Origin: Methylococcaceae bacterium
Lineage (GTDB): Bacteria; Pseudomonadota; Gammaproteobacteria; Methylococcales; Methylomonadaceae
Length of the DNA stretch: 40,427 nucleotides
Assembly (NCBI GenBank): GCA_014191975.1
Contig: BJHG01000013.1
Span: 1 to 40,427 of the forward strand
Direction: 5' to 3'
Both the position numbers and the translations under genes were made by a program. The notes below the pieces were generated by a model, which saw only the letters and a program-made list of their open reading frames with translations, was not told the DNA's origin and searched no databases. This document shows, in pieces, positions 6,046 through 27,479 of this stretch. Numbering within the stretch: position 1 is the stretch's first letter; the number at the start of each line of letters is the position of its first letter.

Positions 6046-7524
6046 TTACGGTTTCACAGTAGAATCACCTTTCGGTCCCTTATCACCTTTATCCCCTTTA
6101 ACACCTAGATTGCCTTTTGAACCGGGCTCTCCTTTGGCGCCAGCATCGCCTTTTGGACCAGGATCACCTCTAAAGCCTTGATCACCTTTTGGACCTTGAT
6201 CACCTTTAAAGCCTTGATCACCTTTCACACCTTGATCACCTTTTGGACCTTGATCGCCTTTTGGACCTTGATCACCTTTTACGCTATCGCCTTTAGTACC
6301 TTGCTCACCTATTGGCCCTTGATCACCTTTAGGTCCTGGATCGCCCTTAAATCCTGGATCACCTTTAGGTCCTAAATCACCTTTAAAGCCTTGATCACCT
6401 TGTACGCCTTGATCACCTTTCAAGCCTTGGTCGCCTTTCAAACCTTGATCACCTTTCAAGCCTTGGTCGCCTTTTTGTCCTTTAATACCTTGTGGACCTT
6501 GATCACCTTTCACACCTTGATCACCTTTCACACCTTGAGGTCCTTGTACGCCTTGAAGTCCTTGTTCACCTTTGGAGCCGACATCACCTTTCACACCTTT
6601 GATACCTTGAATACCTTGATCACCTTTATCTCCTTGATCGCCAGTATCCCCTTTTGGTCCAGGGATGCCTTCTATTCCTGATATTCCTTTAATACCTTTA
6701 TCGCCTTTTGGTCCAGGGGGGCCTTCTTTACTTACGACTTTATCAATCCAGCTATAAATACGCTTTTCCAATGATCCATCCGCATGTAAATATAGATGCC
6801 CCTCATTTTCTATCTTAACTTGTTGATAATAAGAGTTTTTCTTTCCTGCGACCTGACGATCACGCGCACTTTCGACTACATTTAGCAGATCCTCTGAACC
6901 ATAAACATCTAGCATAGGCAGCCTAGATTTTGATATGAATGATAGGACTTGTATATTTGGATCCTTTGTTTCTGGAACGGGCAAACTAATGGTAATCAAC
7001 GCATTTACACCCAGTGTTTGTTCCGACAACATATAACTTGCCATCAATCCGCCTAAACCATAACCAATGACAACGATTCTTTCAGATTTTTCTTTTTTAG
7101 CGAATTTAATCGCCTCCAATAATCTCGCTTTAGCTTCAGGAAAAAGCGAATAATAATCTTGAGTGGTTGCGCCTTCTTCACGCAAAGGCATCTGTACCGA
7201 CAATGTTGCCCAATGATGATTAGGAAAAAATGATCGAAGCGGCTTAATCACGGTATCCAAATTTGGATGCCCGCCAATATCATGTAGAAGAATAATTACA
7301 CCATCACGATAACTTTGAGATGTATCCGTATAAAGATTTAAAAACTTTTTTCCACCGGTCTCAAGCCAAACGATATGCCCTAGTTTTAAGGTTTGCTGAA
7401 TATCATTTACGAATACAGTCTCTCGCTTTTCATCACTTGCGAGGCAAGCTAACGCACTACATAAACAAATCGCAAGACTTGCCTGAGTGAATTTTCTCAT
7501 GACTACAAATGAATTATCTTTCAT
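6046..7524 (-). CDS. Secreted alpha/beta-hydrolase-like protein with collagen-like tail (copy 1)
   Basis: 492 residues. A signal peptide covers roughly residues 1-30 (a basic start, then LAICLCSALACLA). Residues 35-265 form an alpha/beta-hydrolase-like domain resembling DUF3530: LLHDIGGHP (79-87), HHWATLSVQMPL, and the elbow VVIGYGLGG (151-159), with a possible acid near 206-212 and a histidine in YLHADG. The nucleophile position of GxSxG holds glycine (GYGLG), so classical serine hydrolysis is doubtful. From residue 268 to the end run about 70 Gly-X-Y triplets rich in GPKGDQ and GxKGDQG, broken once in register at GDSVKGDQ; the protein ends STVKP. It is probably exported and forms a trimeric stalk. 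The start ATG is supported by the parallel start of the tandem copy (MK-D/N-NSFV). It has no recognisable ribosome site. Function unknown. Confidence 0.85.
   Translation of the reverse strand: MKDNSFVVMRKFTQASLAICLCSALACLASDEKRETVFVNDIQQTLKLGHIVWLETGGKKFLNLYTDTSQSYRDGVIILLHDIGGHPNLDTVIKPLRSFFPNHHWATLSVQMPLREEGATTQDYYSLFPEAKARLLEAIKFAKKEKSERIVVIGYGLGGLMASYMLSEQTLGVNALITISLPVPETKDPNIQVLSFISKSRLPMLDVYGSEDLLNVVESARDRQVAGKKNSYYQQVKIENEGHLYLHADGSLEKRIYSWIDKVVSKEGPPGPKGDKGIKGISGIEGIPGPKGDTGDQGDKGDQGIQGIKGVKGDVGSKGEQGLQGVQGPQGVKGDQGVKGDQGPQGIKGQKGDQGLKGDQGLKGDQGLKGDQGVQGDQGFKGDLGPKGDPGFKGDPGPKGDQGPIGEQGTKGDSVKGDQGPKGDQGPKGDQGVKGDQGFKGDQGPKGDQGFRGDPGPKGDAGAKGEPGSKGNLGVKGDKGDKGPKGDSTVKP
6060..6722 (-). 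repeat. Gly-X-Y coding tandem repeats, copy 1
   Basis: Degenerate 9-bp codon-triplet repeats that group into 18- and 27-bp units, such as recurring TTGATCACCTTTCAAGCC and TTGATCACCTTTTGGACC on the plus strand. The near-identity of neighbouring units indicates recent expansion or contraction by slippage or recombination. The repeats are in frame throughout. Confidence 0.85.
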
Positions 7525-7811: not shown

Positions 7812-9281
7812 TTATTGACCTTTATCGCCTTTTTCACCTTTATCGCCTTTTTCACCTAGATTGCCTTTTGAGCCAGGATCCCCTTTATCGCCTTTATCGC
7901 CTTTTGAACCTGGATCACCTTTTACGCCTGCATCCCCTTTTACGCCCGTATCGCCTTTTACGCCCGTATCGCCTTTTGAACCTGGATCACCTTTGGGTCC
8001 TTGATCACCCTTTGGCCCCTGATCACCTTTAAGGCTATCACCTTTAATGCCTTGCTCACCTATTGGTCCAGCGTCACCTTTTGCTCCAGGATCACCTTTG
8101 GGTCCTGCGCTACCTTTGGGACCTGGATCACCTTTGAAGCCAACATCGCCTTTCACACCTTGGTCGCCTCTCAAGCCAGCATCACCTTTCGCGCCTTGAG
8201 TACCTTTTTGTCCAGGTTCACCTTTTTGTCCCGCAACACCTTGTAGTCCTTGGTCACCTTTCACGCCTTGATCACCCCTAACGCCTTGCTGTCCTTGTGC
8301 GCCTTGCTGTCCTTGCTCACCTTTTGGACCAGCGTCACCTTTTTCACCTTTTATGCCTTCAAAACCTTGATCGCCTTTCTCACCTTGGTCGCCTGAATCA
8401 CCTTTCGGGCCAACACGTACTTCACGCACGTCACGTACTTGTTTTGTCCTACTCGAAGAAAGACTGCCACTTCCTGCTATGCCGTCAAGCACTTTTTTAT
8501 CAATCCAGCTATAAATGCGCTTTTCTAACAATCCATCCGCATGCAAATATAAACGCCCTTCGTTTTCGATTTTAATTTGTTGATAATAAAGATTATCTTT
8601 GCCTGCAAGCTGACGGTCACGTGCACTATCGACTACACTTTCCAGATCCAATGATCCATAAATATCTAGCATTGGCAGTTTAGATTTTGCTATAAATGAC
8701 AGTACTTTTGTATTAGGGTCGCTAGCTTTTGGAACAGGTAAACTAATGGTTATTAGCGCATTTACACCTAGTGTTTGTTCATCCAATATGTAGCTTGCCA
8801 TCAACCCTCCTAAACCGTAACCAATAACAACGATTTTTTCGGATTTTTCTTTTTTAGCAAATTTAATCGCTTCTAATAATCTCGTTTTGGCTTCAGGAAA
8901 AAGAGGGTAATAATCTTGACTACCTGCATTTTCTTCACGCAAAGGCATCTGCACCGACAATGTTGCCCAATGATGGTTAGGAAAAAATGTACGAAGTGAT
9001 TTAATTACCGCCTCCCGATTTGGATGCCCACCGGCATCATGTAGGATAATAATTACGCCATCACGGTGACTTTGTGTCGTATCCGTGTAGATATTTAAAA
9101 ATTTTTTTCCATCCGCTTCAAGCCAAACAGCATTCCCTAAATTTAAGCCTTGTTGAATATCGGTTGCAAATACATTCTCACGGCTGGTATCAGTTGCCAC
9201 GCACGTCAATGACCCACTTAAACAAAGAGCCAGACTTACTTGAGTTAATTTTTTAATAGATACAAATGAATTATTTTTCAT
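7812..9281 (-). CDS. Secreted alpha/beta-hydrolase-like protein with collagen-like tail (copy 2)
   Basis: Tandem paralogue of the gene at 6046-7524, with near-identical blocks throughout the N-terminal domain. It has a signal peptide (LTQVSLALCLSGSLTCVA), IILHDAGGHP, HHWATLSVQMPL and the same VVIGYGLGG elbow lacking serine. A linker (GSLSSSRTKQVRDVREVRV) then leads into about 65 Gly-X-Y triplets with more GxKGDxG charge pairs and the same register break (GDSLKGDQ). The ATG at 9281 is preferred over the one at 9296 because MKNNSFV aligns with the start of copy 1. The frame ends GEKGDKGQ, but a shifted frame just downstream reads DFVVKP and a stop, matching the DSTVKP end of copy 1, so the natural C-terminus has apparently been lost to a frameshift. 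It lies upstream in the same direction as copy 1. Confidence 0.85.
   Translation of the reverse strand: MKNNSFVSIKKLTQVSLALCLSGSLTCVATDTSRENVFATDIQQGLNLGNAVWLEADGKKFLNIYTDTTQSHRDGVIIILHDAGGHPNREAVIKSLRTFFPNHHWATLSVQMPLREENAGSQDYYPLFPEAKTRLLEAIKFAKKEKSEKIVVIGYGLGGLMASYILDEQTLGVNALITISLPVPKASDPNTKVLSFIAKSKLPMLDIYGSLDLESVVDSARDRQLAGKDNLYYQQIKIENEGRLYLHADGLLEKRIYSWIDKKVLDGIAGSGSLSSSRTKQVRDVREVRVGPKGDSGDQGEKGDQGFEGIKGEKGDAGPKGEQGQQGAQGQQGVRGDQGVKGDQGLQGVAGQKGEPGQKGTQGAKGDAGLRGDQGVKGDVGFKGDPGPKGSAGPKGDPGAKGDAGPIGEQGIKGDSLKGDQGPKGDQGPKGDPGSKGDTGVKGDTGVKGDAGVKGDPGSKGDKGDKGDPGSKGNLGEKGDKGEKGDKGQ
7830..8412 (-). repeat. Gly-X-Y coding tandem repeats, copy 2
   Basis: In-frame 9-bp triplet repeats, for example repeated CCCGTATCGCCTTTTACG units near 7936-7975 on the plus strand. 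They are less homogeneous than in copy 1. The repeat number differs between the two genes, showing independent length change after duplication. Confidence 0.85.
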
Positions 9282-9449
9282 GATTATATGCTTCAAGTAA
9301 TGTCACAATTGCTACTACATGCCACTAACGCTAAGCAATTCCCTGTCAATAAAAAGTGGACGCTTCTTCGTTACAAGTACGCTGAAATTACAAGTATCTC
9401 GAATTAAACGTAAAATAGATAAACATTATAAACTGAAGCCCATTTTTTT

Positions 9450-25479: not shown

Positions 25480-25731
25480 TGTGTTTTTAGTTGGAAAAAT
25501 AGGTTACTTTTTTACGCTCTTTTTTCCGATAACTACTCTGATCAAGCAACTTAATGTTCTTACTGTCTTTTTCATCATCAAGCTCTACTTGTTCAACCCA
25601 TTTGTACAAAATACCGCTACCATCCACAAGTTTTTTACGGCTTCTGGCACCATTTTCTCGCCTTCAAGTACCAATTTTACTGCTGTTGCTTTGAATTCTT
25701 TTGTGTAGATTTTTTTAATGTTGCTTGTCAT
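25480..25731 (-). pseudogene. IS3-family OrfA remnant
   Basis: The minus strand starts MTSNIKKIYTKEFKATAVKL followed by VLEGEKMVPEAVKN, then shifts frame to DGSGILYKWVEQVELDD. This is the helix-turn-helix protein of an IS3-type element with a frameshift in the recognition region. The catalytic part is missing. The plus-strand ORF listed at 25472-25708 is only its antisense shadow. Confidence 0.7.
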
Positions 25732-25855
25732 TTAGAACGTCTTTTTGTTGTAGAATACCTCAAAAATGCGTCCTAATTTTTACATAGTGATCATTCACCT
25801 TCTTGTTTGCGTTCGCAAATTCGATTAAAACCATCCATATTAATAAAAATAAAAC

Positions 25856-26878
25856 ATGATGCAATCAACTCATAGAAAGCAAAATGTATTTGTCATTTAC
25901 GGCGGCTACACACAAGAAGCAAGCGTTTCAATAAGAAGTGGTCAAAATATCATTGATACTTTAGACGACTCTTTATTCATTGCTTATGCAATTACCTTTT
26001 TTGAACAAACCATTGTGTGTGTTTTAAATGGTGAAAAATATAAAATGGACTTAAATACCTTTTCCTTTATTACGCATGATGGCAGGAAAATAAACCCTGA
26101 TTATTGTTTTATTGCGGTGCATGGCGCCCCCGGGGAAAATGGGCAACTACAGTCTTTGTTTGAATTAATAGGTATTCCTTATTTTTCAGTCAATTCAAGA
26201 ATATCTGCATTAACCAATCATAAATACCATACCGTGTGTTACGTCAAATCACATGATGTTTGTGTAGCACAAAATCATTATATCAATAACGATCATTACG
26301 ATATTGATGTGATATGCGAAAAAATGGCATTTCCATTTTTTATTAAAGCTTGTAAAAATGGAAGTAGTATTGGTGTAAATAAGGCTTATTCAAAAGAACA
26401 AGCTGATCAATTTATAAAAGAAACTTTGAAAATAGATGATGAAATTATTATCGAACAATCTATTTCGGGGAGAGAATTTACCATTGGTATTTTTACGCTC
26501 GATAATCAAATTACTATAACGTCTCCGAGCGAAGAATTATTAATTGAAAATAATATTGATTTTTTATCACATGAAAACAAGATAGACAGCACAAAAAACA
26601 TTACATTGACGGTCGCAAATGTAGATAAACTGTTACTTTTAAAAATGCAAAATTTTGTCAGAAAAATTTATGGTATTTTTGGGAATAAAGGCGTTATGCG
26701 GATCGATTTTATTTTAAATGATAACGATAACGAGCTCTATTTTCTGGAAATTAATACCATTCCGGGTATGTCGCCGCAAAGTATATTTCCGAAAATGTTA
26801 GTGGCGGCGGGGATGACATTTAGTCATTTCTTAACCACAACTATCCGTGAAGCCATTGAAAATAATACATCACAATGA
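25856..26878 (+). CDS. ddl: D-alanine-D-alanine ligase-like ATP-grasp enzyme, probably acquired
   Basis: 340 residues. Ddl enzymes join two D-alanines for peptidoglycan. Motifs in order: FVIYGGYTQEASVSIRSGQN, AVHGAPGENGQLQSLFELIG followed by IPYF, SALTNHKYH, the ATP-grasp loop FIKACKNGSSIGVNKA, IIEQSISGREFTIGIF, MRIDFIL, and the metal-binding end FLEINTIPGMSPQSIFPKM. HGAPGENG.LQ and SALT.NK are reminiscent of Bacteroidetes Ddl. The omega-loop motif, usually DYEAKY, reads SHENKI here, so the tyrosine that contacts the active site is replaced. The gene is more AT-rich than its neighbours and sits between IS remnants, both signs of transfer. It starts ATGATG without a ribosome site. It may be a second Ddl, or a ligase with different acceptor use (D-lactate, D-serine or a secondary metabolite). 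Confidence 0.85.
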   Translation: MMQSTHRKQNVFVIYGGYTQEASVSIRSGQNIIDTLDDSLFIAYAITFFEQTIVCVLNGEKYKMDLNTFSFITHDGRKINPDYCFIAVHGAPGENGQLQSLFELIGIPYFSVNSRISALTNHKYHTVCYVKSHDVCVAQNHYINNDHYDIDVICEKMAFPFFIKACKNGSSIGVNKAYSKEQADQFIKETLKIDDEIIIEQSISGREFTIGIFTLDNQITITSPSEELLIENNIDFLSHENKIDSTKNITLTVANVDKLLLLKMQNFVRKIYGIFGNKGVMRIDFILNDNDNELYFLEINTIPGMSPQSIFPKMLVAAGMTFSHFLTTTIREAIENNTSQ

Positions 26879-26887
26879 TCCGTCAAC

Positions 26888-27172
26888 AGTAATCAGGACA
26901 AAAACACAGCGAACTTTACTATATGTTTCAAAATTTTCTGGTGGCATTGATCTATTAGGGGAATGGCTGTGTTTGTGGTTAAAAGTCTTCAATATATTCG
27001 AAGAGATAACTCCCGCTTGCCCTCTATAATTTTGTAGCGAATGTGCTAACCAACTCAGTTTTGAGTATGTGAAAAAGGCTCTCAGCGACCACGTTGTCGC
27101 AACAATCGCGACTTCTTTGTTCGATTTCATGCATTTTAAACAAAGCGCAATGTGATTTTGAAGCATATTGCA
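26888..27172 (-). pseudogene. IS3-family OrfB (integrase-type) C-terminal remnant
   Basis: On the minus strand, successive frames give QYASKSHCALFKMHEIEQRS, then RDCCDNVVAESLFHILKTEL, a stop, then YLFEYIEDF, and after another shift NHKHSHSPNRSMPPENFE. These match the conserved end of IS3 transposases, including the catalytic glutamate of DN.VAES. At least one stop and two frameshifts mean it is dead. The ORF-track proteins at 26847-27029 and 26870-27166 are partial or wrong-frame reads of it. Confidence 0.75.
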
Positions 27173-27479
27173 ATCATTCTCCAGTTACGTTCTCATATTC
27201 CCTGCCATCGACCAGCTGACGATTTTGGGTAAAAATAAGTCAATCGCTGTTGCCAAAAGTAAAATAATCCTTCCCCAGATCATGAAAACAGCACGATTAG
27301 TCGAAACCGTTATCGGTCAATTAACAGATCATTTTCAAATCGAAAAAGTTCACGCTCGAGATTGTTTGCATCTAAATCATTGCTTCATCAGAAAAATTCT
27401 TGCTTATACTATGGGAACGTTTCTGAATAGAATTTTGGGGAATTCTATTTTATATTTTGATGACTTGGTTTTGACCTAA
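27168..27479 (+). pseudogene. IS982-family transposase C-terminal remnant
   Basis: From about 27205 the plus strand encodes the C-terminal part of an IS982-type transposase: SIAVAKSKIILPQIMKTARL, VETVIGQLTDHFQIEKVHAR, then RKILAYTMGTFLNRILGN and a natural stop. The catalytic N-terminal two-thirds are missing, cut at the junction with the IS3 remnant at about 27172. From 27480 to 27724 there is no recognisable gene; the only structure seen is a short inverted repeat GTATCG-A-CGATAC (27522-27534), possibly an element end. Confidence 0.65.

Follow-up and report, generated by a model that had tools for sequence, protein, structure and literature searches.

A second Ddl-type ligase in a Methylococcaceae bacterium lacks the omega-loop tyrosine and may have a changed acceptor

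In this article, I describe a Ddl-like ATP-grasp ligase from a Methylococcaceae bacterium in which the omega-loop, including the tyrosine found at position 216 of E. coli DdlB, has been replaced, and from comparison with its homologues I infer, with a probability of roughly 0.55, that the enzyme is active, uses D-Ala as donor and has a changed or broadened acceptor. In the textbook view, Tyr or Phe at this position decides whether a ligase makes dipeptides or depsipeptides, and a natural, conserved Ile/Val form with a wholly different loop provides a ready-made test of loop selection; if the product is not D-Ala-D-Ala, a Gram-negative methanotroph would possess a cell-wall variant or a D-Ala metabolite that has so far gone unrecognised. 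The genome (2.13 Mb, 131 contigs) encodes a PmoA-family protein (AMO, 433 bits), which makes it very probable that this organism oxidises methane. The gene lies within a stretch of 40,427 nucleotides (the window), in which the following features matter here:

25856-26878, + strand: gene for the Ddl-like ATP-grasp ligase, 340 aa (open reading frame; Pfam PF01820 and PF07478; AlphaFold model)
25916-25918, + strand: Glu21, equivalent to DdlB Glu15 of the first D-Ala site, conserved (column table)
26363-26368, + strand: Ser170-Ser171, equivalent to DdlB Ser150-Ser151, conserved (column table)
26525-26620, + strand: remodelled omega-loop, residues 224-255, in which four orthologs agree at 30 of 32 positions, replacing DdlB FYDYEAKY
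26567-26584, + strand: SHENKI, residues 238-243 (column table over 112 homologues)
25487-25731, - strand: broken remnant of an IS3-type transposase OrfA, upstream of the gene (HTH_Tnp_1, E=0.008, below the Pfam cut-off, in two frames)
27024-27173, - strand: possible IS3-type OrfB remnant, downstream of the gene (DCCDNVVAESLFHILKTELV; by eye, no Pfam match at E<=0.1)

The protein is a member of the Ddl-fold ATP-grasp family, with identical catalytic residues and both domains above their Pfam gathering scores: Dala_Dala_lig_N (PF01820) at 61.5 bits (cut-off 34.6) and Dala_Dala_lig_C (PF07478) at 140.1 bits (cut-off 24). Within this family it is a variant whose scores stay under the curated thresholds for ligases of all three kinds, D-Ala-D-Ala, D-Ala-D-Lac and D-Ala-D-Ser. 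The best NCBIfam model, NF002527 (a Bacteroidota-type D-alanine--D-alanine ligase, EC 6.3.2.4), reaches 255.7 bits against a cut-off of 310 and TIGR01205 reaches 226.6 against 245.65, while the cut-offs of the VanA/B/D-type D-Ala--D-Lac models (NF000206, 143.3 vs 550; VanD, 126.7 vs 700) and of the VanC/E/G-type D-Ala--D-Ser models (NF000207, 147.3 vs 520; VanG, 162.3 vs 495) are missed as well. An AlphaFold model built from five sequences (mean pLDDT 82.6, pTM 0.81) has Ddls, VanA, VanG and LmDdl2 as its nearest solved structures, all at a TM of about 0.8, so the fold does not discriminate between these specificities; at residues 227-250, exactly the loop, pLDDT is below 50 and the geometry is not modelled with confidence.

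The preliminary description of this DNA had set the usual DYEAKY segment against SHENKI by eye, somewhere within 26440-26640, and this is borne out when 112 distinct homologues, taken from records of the genus, family, order, class, Bacteroidota, E. coli and plasmids, are aligned with MAFFT. FLSHENKI (236-243) falls under E. coli DdlB FYDYEAKY (209-216) and Bacteroidota FFDYEAKY, placing His239 under Tyr212, Lys242 at Lys215 (the loop lysine is thus retained) and Ile243 under Tyr216. In the Tyr216 column, all 108 homologues outside the subfamily have Tyr and the four orthologs have Ile (three) or Val (one); Tyr is also present in 18 extra homologues (Vibrio-like second Ddls, viral contigs and more Bacteroidota), giving Ile/Val in 4/4 orthologs vs Tyr in 126/126 other aligned homologues, a sample of best-scoring hits and hence one that leaves the Phe enzymes of lactic acid bacteria outside. 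The replacement of Tyr216 by Ile in the window enzyme therefore holds. A conserved Tyr elsewhere in the loop, named beforehand as the observation that would speak against this reading, was looked for in all four orthologs and is absent, and since the loop is without any Tyr, an alternative alignment placing one elsewhere is ruled out. The four orthologs have neither the Tyr of a D-Ala-D-Ala ligase nor the Phe of an LmDdl2-type D-Ala--D-Lac ligase at this position, and Ile/Val lies outside the Tyr/Phe switch of the literature. The subfamily further differs from DdlB by Tyr210 to Leu, Asp211 to Ser, Tyr212 to His, Ala214 to Asn and Asp69 to Asn, and has Ser/Ala in the Trp182 column.

In the same column table nothing has changed among the residues that serve ATP, Mg, the first D-Ala and the transition state. 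The retained DdlB equivalents are Glu15 (E21), His63, Glu68, Lys97, Lys144, Ser150 (S170), Glu180, Glu187, Lys215 (K242), Arg255 (R282), Asp257, Glu270, Asn272 (N300), Gly276 and Ser281 (S309), and the first-D-Ala site (Glu15, Val18, His63, Ser150) is retained in full, which points to D-Ala as the donor. It had been proposed that the Ser and Glu partners of the lost tyrosine remain; this stands for the Ser (S170), but the Glu of the IIEQ motif, E200, corresponds to DdlB Glu180 and is not the partner of Tyr216 and Ser150, which in the DdlB structure is Glu15 (also kept here).

The loop is not a singular oddity of one sequence, as orthologs occur in three further species of this genus, at 88, 79 and 68% identity across the full alignment, so that 4/18 genus genomes carry the gene, and no further copies were found in the sampled genomes of the order, class or phylum. 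Pairwise dN/dS among the orthologs is 0.09-0.15 (NG86), with synonymous sites almost saturated where the pairs are more distant, and residues 224-255 form the most conserved 32-residue window (30/32 invariant, window mean 20.4, four orthologs), indicating that the loop is the most constrained part of the protein and not a relaxed one. Judged from these four sequences, the loss of the Tyr is ancestral to the subfamily and under strong selection; sequencing error or decay is ruled out as its cause by the four open orthologs and the low dN/dS.

The window gene is the second ligase of the genome. An ordinary host Ddl with YDYEAKY is encoded in-frame behind MurB as a 603-aa protein (L002:1480-3291, - strand), and this fusion rules out the window gene as the only Ddl of its host. 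Open frames of about 600 aa at the Ddl match are also seen in the majority of genus genomes and, within the family, in several further genera, so the MurB-Ddl fusion looks widespread there. The window gene has a GC content of 32.1% vs 39.5% for the whole window and is flanked by ntrC on one side and a parA/lnt/galU block on the other, with the broken transposase pieces next to it. Its neighbours in the other three genomes are all different, with none in common, and no operon partner was found in the window or in the three ortholog contexts; together with its presence in 4/18 genomes, this suggests a solitary gene that is mobile or repeatedly lost. Upstream of the start codon, a segment of about 60 bases (25790-25851) is common to the closest ortholog (L034, 81%) and the flanks beyond differ; the shared segment holds the short inverted repeat TTTGCG-TT-CGCAAA. 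A promoter scan gave fewer matches than in shuffled sequence and is uninformative. Elsewhere in the window, 6046-7524 and 7812-9296 (both - strand) encode neighbouring DUF3530 alpha/beta-hydrolase-like proteins with long collagen-type Gly-X-Y tails.

As to its origin, the best matches outside the genus are Bacteroidota Ddls at up to 233.5 bits (248 and 396 sampled genomes), whereas the best gammaproteobacterial Ddl reaches 155.4 bits at most. In trees without the loop columns the four orthologs group together as a single clade (100), the stem of which is long at about 2 changes per site, and stand clearly apart from the host MurB-Ddl; one tree joins them to Bacteroidota Ddls with an SH-aLRT of 97, and in a fuller tree this grouping is weak (82/45). 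Transfer of the gene from outside the class is likely on the sequence comparisons. An origin within the Gammaproteobacteria was considered and rejected, with no near relative among the genomes sampled from the order (301), class (369) and phylum (399). A direct Bacteroidota donor was not found in those 248 and 396 genomes, where the best match has a normal loop. A viral scan with the protein alone gave no match that would indicate a phage origin, and among five distant Ddl-bearing viral contigs found with a mixed alignment, the three inspected have Tyr. By profile score, the nearest gammaproteobacterial relative is the additional type of Ddl that Vibrio-like genomes carry (L137-L145; PDB 6dgi), with EEKY in its loop.

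In the Ddl family, the D-Ala in site 1 is phosphorylated and attacked by the second substrate, while the omega-loop closes the pocket. By this scheme the window enzyme would bind ATP and Mg as every Ddl does, phosphorylate the D-Ala in its first site, which is intact (Glu21, His89, Ser170), and then hand the acyl phosphate to an acceptor. The acceptor pocket would be without the hydroxyl of Tyr216, which as a rule joins Ser150 to Glu15 and makes D-Ala the favoured acceptor, with Ile243 and His239 standing in for Tyr216 and Tyr212, and the housekeeping D-Ala-D-Ala reaction would be left to the MurB-Ddl fusion protein. Candidate acceptors would be D-lactate or another D-hydroxy acid first, and D-Ser or another D-amino acid next.

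A changed acceptor is the most economical reading because the Tyr/Phe switch is documented: Tyr vs Phe decides between dipeptide and depsipeptide activity in Leuconostoc/Lactobacillus Ddls, where 173 Lactobacillus enzymes surveyed have Tyr or Phe only (PMC5996685, which also cites Park & Walsh 1997), and a DdlB in which Tyr216 and Ser150 are altered acquires a weak D-Ala-D-Lac activity (Park & Walsh 1997, cited in PMC7691350). In MysD, another Ddl paralog, the acceptor is likewise set by residues of the omega-loop (PMC11983340). However, D-lactate is not implied as the acceptor, since Ile/Val is without a studied precedent that I know of, VanG, a D-Ser ligase, retains EKY in its loop, and no VanX-type dipeptidase (Peptidase_M15, PF01427) was matched in the 18 genus genomes. 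Against a changed acceptor stands that a role in rerouting peptidoglycan would usually call for both a VanX-type dipeptidase and an operon partner, neither of which was found, and vancomycin resistance is of little gain to a Gram-negative. A Van operon is ruled out as far as tested by the NCBIfam scores, the ortholog contexts and the missing Peptidase_M15. The earlier proposal that the altered loop may change acceptor specificity is partly supported: the Tyr loss is real and selected and a changed acceptor is plausible, but the residue is Ile/Val rather than Phe, nothing Van-like lies nearby and no Peptidase_M15 was matched in the 18 genus genomes. As to the idea that changes at this loop separate the Van specificities, VanG shows that not all Van types can be told apart by the Tyr.

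Several other explanations have to be weighed against a changed acceptor. Mobile, integron-cassette second Ddls with normal D-Ala-D-Ala activity and D-cycloserine resistance are a precedent (PMC7691350) for an ordinary D-Ala-D-Ala ligase with an odd loop, maintained as a spare copy that is, for example, less sensitive to D-cycloserine or similar inhibitors, and the intact catalytic residues and the solitary, mobile-looking, AT-rich gene would suit this; but those integron enzymes retain Ser150 and Tyr216 (PMC7691350) and the window enzyme is without the Tyr, it scores below both NCBIfam D-Ala-D-Ala cut-offs given above, and a strictly conserved replacement of the whole loop exceeds the needs of inhibitor escape, so that I consider a spare copy unlikely, albeit well worth keeping in mind. 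The most far-reaching reading, a new acceptor chemistry (not D-Ala, D-Lac or D-Ser) brought about by replacement of the whole omega-loop (FLSHENK[IV]DSTKNITLTVAN) in a subfamily that has passed between methane-oxidising bacteria as one mobile gene, is a tentative and rather doubtful proposal, which if true would provide methane oxidisers with either a cell-wall terminus or a D-Ala conjugate of a new kind.

An improbable alternative is a small-molecule ligase outside peptidoglycan that, like MysD, which acts on mycosporine-glycine in mycosporine synthesis, uses the Ddl fold to join an amino acid to another carboxylate. MysD is a Ddl homologue in which two omega-loop residues set the product (PMC11983340), and no cell-wall operon surrounds the gene in any of the four genomes, nor is there a VanX-type enzyme; against this, the retained first-D-Ala site points to a D-Ala donor and no biosynthetic partner genes were recognised beside the gene in any of the four short contexts. 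No mysA/B/C neighbours were recognised by eye in the window or the short ortholog contigs. Finally, the adjoining broken IS fragments and the AT-rich composition might suggest a decaying or inactive acquired gene, but this is very improbable for a frame that is open in four species at such low dN/dS, with every catalytic residue retained and the loop as its most conserved part.

When the window enzyme is placed among known systems, the closest sequences are Bacteroidota-type Ddls (e.g., Flavobacteriaceae MAG NVXD01000022, L007, 36% identity), which are alike in length, domains and catalytic residues but have the loop FFDYEAKY/FFDFEAKY where the window enzyme has FLSHENKI. E. coli DdlB (PDB 2dln, 1iov, 1iow) is alike in fold (TM 0.74 and 0.82 vs 1iow), catalytic residues and Lys215, and differs in that its Tyr210, Asp211, Tyr212, Ala214, Tyr216 and Asp69 are Leu, Ser, His, Asn, Ile and Asn in the window enzyme. 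The Leuconostoc/Lactobacillus D-Ala-D-Lac ligases (LmDdl2, PDB 1ehi) share the loss of the Tyr216 hydroxyl, but have Phe (PMC5996685) where the window subfamily has Ile/Val, and the similarity is low (85.8 bits). VanA (PDB 1e4e) has a similar fold and, with the loop Phe as anchor, its F241-R-I-H244 lies over F236-L-S-H239, a match of His239 to VanA His244 that is only a lead because HMMER sets the VanA His one place off; VanA differs in the loop Lys and the remainder of the loop, and the window gene is without a van operon. Likened by its description, MysD, the mycosporine-like amino acid ligase, is also a Ddl paralog whose acceptor is set by the omega-loop (PMC11983340), and the window enzyme differs from it in retaining the D-Ala donor site.
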